From NCBI GenBank assembly GCA_026005015.1, contig BPKG01000001.1:1616501-1680500 (forward strand): DNA of 64,000 nucleotides, in the 5' to 3' direction. The notes beneath the pieces were generated by a model. The model was not told where the DNA came from and made no database searches. It saw nothing but the letters and a program-made list of their open reading frames with translations. Source of the DNA: Burkholderiales bacterium. GTDB taxonomy: Bacteria; Pseudomonadota; Gammaproteobacteria; Burkholderiales; UBA6910. Below, one piece after another: positions 18,212 through 62,676 of the stretch; position 1 is the first letter of the stretch, and every line of letters begins with the position of its first letter. A program made the position numbers and the translations under genes.

Positions 18212-18867
18212 GCCTGATCGCCTTCAGCCGCGTCCACAAACGCTATCCCGGCGGCTACGAGGCGCTCAAGGACGTGACCCTGGCCGTCGCCCCCGGAGAG
18301 CTGGTCTACGTGACCGGCCATTCCGGCGCCGGCAAGAGCACGCTCCTCAAGCTCGCCGCCGCCATCGAACGTCCCACCAGCGGCAGCGTTATCGTGAACG
18401 GCCAGAACCTGGCGCACCTGCGGCGAAGCGCCCTTCCCTACCTGCGGCGCCACCTGGGGCTGGTGTTCCAGGACCAGAAGCTGCTCTTCGACCGCAGCGT
18501 GTTCGACAACGTGATGCTCCCCCTGGAGGTGGGCGGTTTCGATCGCCGGGAAGCGGTGCGCCGGGTCCGGGCCGCCCTGGACAAGGTGGGGTTGCTCTCC
18601 AAGGAAAAAGCCCGCCCCATCACCCTCTCCGGCGGCGAGCAACAGCGCCTGGCCATCGCCCGGGCGGTGGTCGGCCGACCCTCCATCCTGATCGCCGATG
18701 AGCCCACGGGCAACCTGGACCCGGAAAGCGCCCGCGAGATCCTGGGGGTGTTCGCCGCCTTCCACCAGGTGGGGGTCACCGTGCTGCTGGCCACCCACGA
18801 CGAGGGGATTCTGGGCGCCCATCCCGGGCGGGTCATCACCCTGAAGCACGGGGCGCTTGTCTCGTGA
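18208..18867 (+). CDS. ftsE: Cell division ATP-binding protein FtsE
   Basis: 219 residues. The only suitable start is TTG at 18208 (reads MSLIAFSRVHKRYPGG), which overlaps the ftsY TGA by 3 bp and has GGAGG upstream in the ftsY end. Walker A is GHSGAGKST near residue 36, the signature LSGGEQQRLAIARA near 136 and Walker B ILIADEPTGNLD. With FtsX it forms an ABC complex that couples septal peptidoglycan hydrolysis to the divisome via EnvC-type activators; an EnvC-like gene lies at 55.8 kb in this window. Confidence 0.96.
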   Translation: MSLIAFSRVHKRYPGGYEALKDVTLAVAPGELVYVTGHSGAGKSTLLKLAAAIERPTSGSVIVNGQNLAHLRRSALPYLRRHLGLVFQDQKLLFDRSVFDNVMLPLEVGGFDRREAVRRVRAALDKVGLLSKEKARPITLSGGEQQRLAIARAVVGRPSILIADEPTGNLDPESAREILGVFAAFHQVGVTVLLATHDEGILGAHPGRVITLKHGALVS

Positions 18868-19775
18868 TCCGCTGGGTGCGGCAGCACGCCCAGGTGTTTC
18901 TGCGAACGCTGGCCCGGTTCATAGCCCAGCCGGTGGCGGCAGCCCTCAATGCCCTGGTGATCGGCGTGGCCCTGTCCCTGCCGGCGGTGGGCTATGTCTT
19001 GCTCGACAACCTGGGCGCCGCCGCCCAAGGGATCGCCGCCCGTCCCCAGTTGAGCCTGTTCCTGCGCCTGGACGCGAACGCCCAGGCGGTGGCGGACATC
19101 CAGGCCCGGCTCGAGGCCCATCCTTCCGTCGCCGCCGCGCGCTTCGTACCGAAGGAGGTGGCCCTTGAACAGCTCGCCGAGCGCACCGGGCTCCCCGAGC
19201 TCGCCTCGGCCCTGGACGGGAATCCCCTGCCCGACGCTTTCGTGGTGGACGCCCGGGCGGACCTCCCGCCCTCCGGCCTGGAGCGGCTGCGGGAAGAGCT
19301 GGCCGGCTGGCCGGGGGTGGACCATGTACAGCTCGATTCCGCCTGGGCCCGCCGGCTGGATGCCTTGCTGCGGCTGGGGAGGACCGGGATCGCCGTACTG
19401 GGAGCATTGCTGGGGATCGCCCTGGTGCTCGCTTCTTTCAACACCATCCGGCTGCAGATCCTCACCCAGCGGGAGGAAATCGAAGTCTCCAAGCTGATCG
19501 GGGCGACCGACGGTTTCATCCGCCGGCCTTTCCTCTATTACGGGGCCCTGCTGGGCCTCGCGGGCGGGGCGATCGCCTGGGGCATCGTGGAAGCCTGCCT
19601 GCGGCTATTGGAGGCGCCCGTGGCGGAACTGGCCCGGCTCTATGGCGGCTCCTTTCGCCTGGCCTCCCTGGGGTGGCGGGAGAGCCTCGCCCTCCTCGGC
19701 CTTTCGGCCGCCCTGGGCTGGCTCGGGGCGATCCTTTCGGTCTCCCAGCACCTGCGGGATATCGAGCCCCGTTAA
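18864..19775 (+). CDS. ftsX: Cell division protein FtsX
   Basis: 303 residues, GTG start overlapping the ftsE stop by 4 bp (GTGA). The first membrane segment is at ~28–50, followed by a ~110-residue periplasmic loop that binds EnvC-type amidase activators. Three more membrane segments lie at ~170–195, ~215–240 and ~270–290. The end QHLRDIEPR is typical. It signals across the membrane with FtsE. Confidence 0.95.
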   Translation: MIRWVRQHAQVFLRTLARFIAQPVAAALNALVIGVALSLPAVGYVLLDNLGAAAQGIAARPQLSLFLRLDANAQAVADIQARLEAHPSVAAARFVPKEVALEQLAERTGLPELASALDGNPLPDAFVVDARADLPPSGLERLREELAGWPGVDHVQLDSAWARRLDALLRLGRTGIAVLGALLGIALVLASFNTIRLQILTQREEIEVSKLIGATDGFIRRPFLYYGALLGLAGGAIAWGIVEACLRLLEAPVAELARLYGGSFRLASLGWRESLALLGLSAALGWLGAILSVSQHLRDIEPR

Positions 19776-19834
19776 GAACAATACTTTAATTTTTATAGAC
19801 TTGGCGCCAGGACTTGCAGGAACTTTGGCGCTTG

Positions 19835-19861
19835 CTAGCACTCTCATGCGGTGAGTGCTAT
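19835..19861 (+). promoter_or_regulatory. CIRCE operator (HrcA site) upstream of rpoH
   Basis: TAGCACTC (19836–19843), exactly 9 bp, then GAGTGCTA (19853–19860). This is the CIRCE inverted repeat (TTAGCACTC-N9-GAGTGCTAA) intact except for its outermost base pair (C…T here). CIRCE is bound by HrcA and usually precedes groESL or dnaK. Its right arm overlaps the probable −10 element of the rpoH promoter, so bound HrcA should block transcription. Confidence 0.85.
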
Positions 19862-19864
19862 AAA
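19856..19864 (+). promoter_or_regulatory. Extended −10 promoter of rpoH
   Basis: TGCTATAAA: an extended −10 (TGn followed by TATAAA at 19859–19864) with no good −35 at the correct distance. It overlaps the right arm of the CIRCE element. Transcription from about 19871 would leave a 20-nt leader carrying the AGGGAGG ribosome-binding site at 19881–19887. Confidence 0.55.
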
Positions 19865-19891
19865 ATAGTCGAGTCAGAAAAGGGAGGATTT

Positions 19892-20767
19892 ATGACCCAA
19901 TCCATGGCGCTTCCCATCCCCGTCCCCACCGCGGTCGGGAGCTTGGAAGCCTACATCCAGGCGGTCAACCGGTTTCCGGTTCTCACCCAGGAAGAAGAGA
20001 TCCGGCTCGCCCGCAAGTTTCGCGACGAAGGCGACCTGGAAGCCGCTCGGCAGCTAGTCCTCTCCCATCTCCGGGTGGTGGTGGCCATCGTCCGCGGCTA
20101 CCTGGGCTACGGCCTGCCCCAGGCAGATTTGATCCAGGAAGGCAACATCGGGCTGATGAAGGCGGTAAAGCGCTTCGACCCGGACCGGGGCGTTCGCCTG
20201 GTGTCCTTCGCCGTGCACTGGATCCGGGCCGAGATCCATGAATTCATCCTGCGCAACTGGCGCCTGGTCAAGGTGGCCACCACTAAAGCCCAGCGCAAGC
20301 TGTTCTTCAACCTACGCAGCTTGAAGCAGGACCTGGGCCCCATGAACCGGGCCGAGGTGCAGGACGTGGCCCGGCGCCTGGGGGTCAAGCCGGCCGAGGT
20401 GGTGGAGATGGAGACTCGCCTTTCAGGCCAGGACGTGGCCTTGGAAGCATCCCCGGACGAGCTGGACGAGGGCGCCCAGCCCCCCATCGCCTACCTGACC
20501 GATGGGTCGGAGGAGCCGGCCGCTCTCCTGGAGGCCCGGGAAGCGGAACGGCTGCGGAGCGAAGGCCTGCAGAAGGCCCTCTCCACTCTGGACGAGCGCA
20601 GCCGCCGCATCATCGAGGCCCGCTGGCTGCGGGAGAAAGAGCCGGCCACCCTGCACGAGCTTGCCGCCGAGCTCAAGGTCTCCGCCGAGCGGGTACGCCA
20701 GATCGAGCAGAAGGCGATGGAGAAGATGCGGCGCGTGATCAGCGCCACGGCCACGGCCAGCGCCTGA
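19892..20767 (+). CDS. rpoH: RNA polymerase heat-shock sigma factor RpoH (sigma-32)
   Basis: 291 residues from the ATG at 19892 with AGGGAGG upstream; the longer open frame to 19814 runs through the CIRCE operator and is not coding. Region 2 is complete (LVLSHLRVVVAIVRGYLGYG; FDPDRGVRLVSFAVHWIRAEI). The RpoH box QRKLFFNLR near residue 132 separates it from RpoD and RpoS. Region 4 has the helix-turn-helix near the C terminus (LKVSAERVRQIEQKAMEKMR). It follows ftsX, as in many proteobacteria. A small heat-shock gene with a sigma-32-like promoter lies at 62.3 kb. Confidence 0.97.
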   Translation: MTQSMALPIPVPTAVGSLEAYIQAVNRFPVLTQEEEIRLARKFRDEGDLEAARQLVLSHLRVVVAIVRGYLGYGLPQADLIQEGNIGLMKAVKRFDPDRGVRLVSFAVHWIRAEIHEFILRNWRLVKVATTKAQRKLFFNLRSLKQDLGPMNRAEVQDVARRLGVKPAEVVEMETRLSGQDVALEASPDELDEGAQPPIAYLTDGSEEPAALLEAREAERLRSEGLQKALSTLDERSRRIIEARWLREKEPATLHELAAELKVSAERVRQIEQKAMEKMRRVISATATASA

Positions 20768-62256: not shown

Positions 62257-62676
62257 TCAAGTGATGGTCAGCCGGCGGCCGCTTGCTGCCGTGCGTTTGG
62301 GCAGGGTAAGCTCCAGCACGCCGTCGACGAAGCGGGCGCTCGCGGCCCCTTCGTCCACTTCCTGCCCCAGGGAGAAGGCGCGGAAGAGCTTTCCGTAGTA
62401 ACGCTCCCGGCGCAACACCTTTTCGTTCTGCCGCTCCTCGCCGTTCTTCTTCACCTCCGCGGCGATGGCCACCTGATTGCCGTCGATGGTGACCTGGATG
62501 TCGTCTTTTTTGACACCGGGCAGCTCCGCCAGCACGGTGTACTTCTGCTCGTCCTCCTTCACGTCCATCCTAAAATGGGCGGGTCCCCGGCTCTCCAGGC
62601 TCATGGGTCGGACGAAAAACCCCTGCAGCAGGTCGTCCAGCTCTCCAAAGGGATCGAAGCGGGTGATGTTGGCCAT
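62257..62676 (-). CDS. Small heat-shock protein, Hsp20 family
   Basis: 139 residues. A short N-terminal arm (MANITRFDPFGELDDLLQGF) precedes the alpha-crystallin domain (FRMDVKEDEQKYTVLAELPGV to GVLELTLPKR). The canonical C-terminal I-x-I is not evident; the tail ends RRLTIT. It holds unfolding proteins for refolding by DnaK. GGAGG lies upstream, and a sigma-32-like promoter about 50 bp before the ATG. Confidence 0.95.
   Translation of the reverse strand: MANITRFDPFGELDDLLQGFFVRPMSLESRGPAHFRMDVKEDEQKYTVLAELPGVKKDDIQVTIDGNQVAIAAEVKKNGEERQNEKVLRRERYYGKLFRAFSLGQEVDEGAASARFVDGVLELTLPKRTAASGRRLTIT

Follow-up and report, generated by a model that had tools for sequence, protein, structure and literature searches.

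We propose that the repressor HrcA controls the transcription of rpoH, the gene for the heat-shock sigma factor sigma-32, in this Burkholderiales bacterium. An inverted repeat (a CIRCE element) that overlies the predicted rpoH promoters is very probably a functional HrcA operator, at which HrcA, together with GroEL, would limit the synthesis of sigma-32. This reading rests on the sequence of the repeat, its conservation, its loss together with hrcA, and the register of the promoter elements around it. From these we infer binding by HrcA, repression, dependence on GroEL, the use of sigma-E in the source organism, and the order and sizes of the inputs.

The window is the whole stretch of 64,000 nucleotides that we analysed. 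These are the features that concern us, with the basis for each in brackets:

18864–19775, plus strand: ftsX, the upstream neighbor of rpoH and a possible source of read-through (TIGR00439, E = 4e-90)
19819–19846, plus strand: predicted sigma-E (RpoE)-type promoter, GGAACTT-N16-TCTCA (the sole match in the window with at most one mismatch, with 0.3 expected; register in relatives)
19835–19861, plus strand: predicted CIRCE operator upstream of rpoH, with TAGCACTC arms at 19836–19843 and 19853–19860 and a 9-bp spacer (shuffles, genome scan, relatives)
19856–19866, plus strand: extended −10-like string TGCTATAAAAT, spanning the right arm and the next bases, a possible housekeeping promoter (TGnTAnnAT-like in relatives)
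19881–19888, plus strand: ribosome-binding site region AGGGAGGA (sequence)
19892–20767, plus strand: rpoH, heat-shock sigma factor sigma-32, 291 amino acids (TIGR02392, E = 4.4e-123; NF005143, E = 5e-129)
62260–62676, minus strand: hsp20, a likely downstream target of sigma-32 (PF00011, E = 6.5e-21)

A CIRCE element upstream of rpoH

The inverted repeat TAGCACTC-N9-GAGTGCTA (19836–19860) is the core of a CIRCE element and lies 31 bp upstream of rpoH. Its 8-bp arms and 9-bp spacing have no mismatches. The sequence from 19835 to 19861 is CTAGCACTC-TCATGCGGT-GAGTGCTAT; relative to the full consensus (TTAGCACTC-N9-GAGTGCTAA), only its outermost bases differ, giving two mismatches. Shuffled windows gave 0 matches as good as this one, and the chance expectation is 0. 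The first-pass annotation had reported intact arms and an exact spacer upstream of rpoH, and it was correct on both, and on the position of the repeat. The gap between ftsX and rpoH, which are on the same strand, is 116 bp, and a terminator scan of this gap found no terminator-like site. We also considered that the repeat itself might be a terminator, but it has no T tract and no terminator-like match, which rules this out.

It had also been claimed that the CIRCE overlaps the extended −10 element of rpoH. The right arm does yield an extended −10-like string (TGC-TATAAAAT), in line with this claim; a strict sigma-70 scan of the region upstream of rpoH calls no promoter. In most relatives, the right arm and the bases that follow it read TGnTAnnAT. 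The final T of this motif is present in 105/106 rpoH CIRCEs from the order and in 65/70 from the class, versus just 2 of 19 groES CIRCEs. Because this T lies outside the CIRCE consensus, its conservation probably has a cause of its own, most simply the extended −10 of a housekeeping promoter, although this is the least certain part of our reading. In the window, the T is missing in the exact TGnTAnnAT register, and TATAAAAT gives the same hexamer two bases later.

The downstream circuit seems to be present as well. The sigma-32-type promoter that had been noticed ahead of hsp20 is indeed there: CTTGAAA-N14-CCTATTT, at about 62750–62723 on the minus strand and roughly 50–75 bp upstream of the gene, which we rate as a fair match.

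HrcA and its predicted sites in the source genome

The regulator that the first-pass annotation called for is encoded in the genome. The source assembly (3.38 Mb, 95% complete) has a single copy of hrcA, full-length and with an intact frame, whose 339-amino-acid product contains both the HrcA_DNA-bdg domain and the C-terminal HrcA domain. We take its neighbors, going by their sequence only, to be NAD-kinase-like and ferrochelatase-like genes. E. coli, which was the control in the hrcA search, has no HrcA.

A scan of the whole genome found exactly two CIRCEs with perfect arms, one at rpoH and the other upstream of groES. Because there are only these two, we predict that the HrcA regulon of the source genome comprises groESL and rpoH. 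A third site (C2:5723) was rejected: it has three mismatches and broken arms, and at such looseness a reversed-pattern control gives similar counts.

The CIRCE at rpoH is retained or lost together with hrcA

All four genomes that we examined from the source family have two CIRCEs each, one of them at rpoH. We also collected 80 rpoH loci from relatives that are either named or metagenome-derived; they include Aromatoleum, Thauera, Nitrosomonas, Thiobacillus, Methylophilus, Ralstonia, Cupriavidus, Massilia, Herbaspirillum, and Pandoraea. Every locus in this set has a CIRCE upstream of rpoH, with at most two mismatches in 79 of them and four mismatches in the remaining one.

We then took 120 genomes, sampled evenly across the order, and compared the regions upstream of rpoH with the presence of hrcA, counting sites with up to four mismatches as CIRCEs. 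Genomes with hrcA had a CIRCE at 105 of 106 rpoH loci, while among the 12 genomes without hrcA, one had the CIRCE and 11 did not (Fisher exact P = 1.5e-13, ignoring shared ancestry). In the sole hrcA-positive genome that lacks the CIRCE (G087), hrcA is degenerate, with a weak partial match that contains a stop codon. The sole hrcA-negative genome with a CIRCE (G054) is 84% complete and is in 520 contigs. Within each of three families (f4, f25, and f35), some members keep both hrcA and the CIRCE and one member has lost both. Because other members of these families retain both, at least three of the co-losses are independent, and only three are clearly so.

Among 114 genomes from across the class, nearly all from outside the order, the CIRCE was found at 63/69 rpoH loci with hrcA versus 7/31 without (P = 1e-11, ignoring shared ancestry); several of the genomes in which hrcA was not found are incomplete (for instance, G125 at 62%, G219 at 73%, and G158 at 81%). 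As a control, shuffled upstream regions always had at least five mismatches to CIRCE. One genome, G050, has two copies of rpoH (C23 and C43; L208 and L218), each with a CIRCE; one of these contigs may be contamination, which is estimated at 3% for this genome.

The co-loss of the CIRCE and hrcA is strong comparative evidence that favors action of HrcA at rpoH. As far as these sequences indicate, a CIRCE at rpoH is the usual state where beta- and gamma-proteobacteria retain HrcA; where hrcA has been lost, the site is mostly gone too. Given the surveys of the order and the class, the site is not peculiar to the source organism. The first-pass annotation had suggested checking for conservation in relatives, and the repeat is conserved in each of these samples. 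It had also described CIRCE as normally controlling chaperone operons, and the source genome does have a CIRCE at groESL. Within this clade, a CIRCE at rpoH is nothing out of the ordinary, and one had been predicted earlier (PMC545781).

A sigma-E-type promoter is nested in the CIRCE

The first-pass annotation had not included a sigma-E-type promoter, though one is nested in the CIRCE. The −35 element, GGAACTT, is at 19819–19825, and the −10 element, TCTCA, is at 19842–19846, where it spans the left arm and the spacer of the CIRCE. Together they are an exact fit to GGAACTT / TCNNA with a spacer of 15–17 bp. The source genome also encodes rpoE followed by rseA (TIGR02939, 328.7 bits, which is above the cut-off; RseA_N, E = 2.1e-15).

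The register of this promoter is shared with many relatives. GAAC precedes the CIRCE by 15 or 16 bp at 62/106 rpoH loci from the order and at 43/70 from the class, versus about 0.3 loci per position elsewhere. Furthermore, the third base of the CIRCE spacer is an A that is also the last base of the TCNNA −10 element. The bases of the spacer are expected to be free of constraint. In the order, this A is present at 68 of 77 loci with the −35 element versus 4 of 29 without it (P = 6e-13); in the class, the corresponding counts are 38 of 43 and 9 of 27 (P = 3e-6). Because these P values treat the loci as independent, they overstate the certainty. The groES CIRCEs, which we used as a control (19 loci), show neither a −35 element in a fixed register nor co-variation of the −10. 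In the order, groES CIRCEs (L105–L133) mostly follow a sigma-32-type promoter (CTTGAAA ... CCCTATCA) whose −10 is directly ahead of the CIRCE. So groESL would pair sigma-32 with HrcA, and rpoH would pair sigma-E with HrcA.

Most rpoH loci of the Burkholderiaceae-like and Alcaligenaceae-like groups lack a sigma-E-type element in this register, and some have GGAACT further upstream. In L086, L090, L091, and other loci from Burkholderiaceae or Oxalobacteraceae, GGAACTATC or ACTATC lies about 27–30 bp before the CIRCE, in place of GGAACTT at 16. At these loci, a sigma-E-type promoter may have shifted so that its −10 falls immediately ahead of the CIRCE.

Two genomes that have lost hrcA show what remains. 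The CIRCE arms of G037 have degenerated (ATAGCACACTC ... CGGTGATAA), and GGAACTT-N16-TCATA and TGATAAAAT are kept. In G116, the CIRCE has decayed as well, and TGAACTT-N16-TCTTA is kept. Because the promoter elements outlast the operator in these genomes, this suggests that the sigma-E promoter elements and the HrcA operator are separate functions on shared bases. We also noticed that the region upstream of rpoH in G116 (L170), where no hrcA was detected, has an altered repeat, AGGCACT ... AGTGCCT, at the former CIRCE and beside the intact sigma-E-type promoter. Possibly, this operator has been adopted by another repressor, or else the decay is ongoing.

The proposed role of HrcA at rpoH

We propose that bound HrcA would cover the sigma-E-type −10 and the extended −10 together and block both. 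While GroEL is free, HrcA would be active and would hold down both rpoH and groESL. When unfolded protein occupies GroEL, or when heat inactivates HrcA, both would be released, and sigma-32 would then raise the expression of groESL, hsp20, and other chaperones. This would form a two-tier loop in which HrcA represses both the activator, rpoH, and one of the activator's targets, groESL, with GroEL as the feedback signal. Sigma-E would bring envelope stress to rpoH as an input, and this input would still require the release of HrcA. Read-through from ftsX into rpoH is possible, and HrcA at the CIRCE might not fully block it.

If such read-through dominates, or if sigma-32 is set mainly by the control of its translation or stability, then the CIRCE could have little effect on rpoH. 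Control of sigma-32 in E. coli is mostly post-transcriptional, and here ftsX is 116 bp away in the same orientation, with nothing terminator-like in between. However, the operator is kept across the class while hrcA is present and is lost along with it. This pattern points to selection on the site, and we consider a minor role of the CIRCE improbable. We see even less reason to think that the CIRCE acts mainly as a stem-loop in the 5' end of the mRNA, altering the stability or translation of rpoH. As an inverted repeat, the CIRCE could fold in read-through RNA. But both of the predicted −10 elements are inside the CIRCE, so transcripts from these promoters would start within or after it and would not contain the whole repeat. 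Also, the arms are conserved as sequence and track the presence of hrcA. This makes a primary role in RNA highly implausible.

A more serious alternative, which we still think is unlikely, is that the repeat is an HrcA operator that responds to temperature, sensed by HrcA itself, instead of to the occupancy of GroEL. The HrcA of Campylobacter jejuni was reported to be an intrinsic protein thermosensor (PMC8533110). However, GroE also stimulates DNA binding by C. jejuni HrcA (PMC8533110), so both inputs can coexist. On either signal, rpoH would be under HrcA control via the CIRCE, as first annotated, and this is supported by the presence of hrcA, by conservation, and by co-loss.

There is perhaps an even chance that HrcA control of rpoH, by a CIRCE within a sigma-E promoter, is the ancestral heat-shock wiring of the beta- and gamma-proteobacteria. 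If so, then the HrcA-free wiring of the E. coli type is derived, and it was reached repeatedly by loss of hrcA while the sigma-E promoter was kept. Most accounts treat HrcA/CIRCE and sigma-32 as two alternative heat-shock systems. Our proposal would put them in series at one promoter, and wherever HrcA is kept, this would be the common state in a very large class. Feedback from the state of GroEL would then reach the master regulator rpoH as well as GroEL's own operon. For rpoH transcription in beta-proteobacteria and in many gamma-proteobacteria, E. coli would be a poor model. And the reason for the base-for-base interlock of the sigma-E and HrcA sites becomes testable.

Comparison with known systems

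The P3 promoter of E. coli rpoH is an RpoE-family promoter upstream of the gene, like the one in the window, but E. coli lacks the HrcA that the source genome has. Classical CIRCE-controlled groESL operons have the same operator and repressor, and the second CIRCE of the source genome is such a site. In this clade, the CIRCE at groES mostly comes after a sigma-32-type promoter, whereas the CIRCE at rpoH is associated with a sigma-E-type promoter.

A literature search for CIRCE, rpoH, and Betaproteobacteria found no paper, and a search of titles and abstracts for HrcA, RpoE, rpoH, and CIRCE did not find the nested arrangement. The 2003 survey by Permina and Gelfand reportedly dealt with the same two regulons in the beta-, gamma-, and epsilon-proteobacteria, including this clade, and it may list a CIRCE at rpoH. 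The nested sigma-E/CIRCE promoter, its breadth, and the class-wide co-loss seem to be undescribed in the literature that we compared, which does not include that survey.

The closest precedent is from 2004, when a CIRCE was predicted 51 bp upstream of rpoH in Geobacter sulfurreducens (PMC545781, Table 8). The operator and the target gene are the same as in the window, and the distance to the start codon is similar. In G. sulfurreducens there is also a CIRCE at the hrcA-grpE-dnaK operon, whereas the source genome has CIRCEs at groESL and rpoH only. The 2004 paper names rpoH among the targets of just one genome, and its passages on this regulon describe no nested sigma-E promoter. As for the sigma-E input, an RpoE-family sigma factor transcribes rpoH (fam) of Bordetella bronchiseptica in vitro (PMC3490749), and in Burkholderia pseudomallei a heat-inducible promoter of rpoH is under rpoE control (reviewed in PMC5994319). 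Both have an RpoE-family promoter upstream of rpoH, as in the window. Neither CIRCE nor HrcA comes up in the Bordetella paper (PMC3490749), while in the window the sigma-E-type −10 is inside the CIRCE. HrcA control of rpoH is already known as a kind of regulation, and Burkholderia and Bordetella provide known cases of rpoH under sigma-E control.
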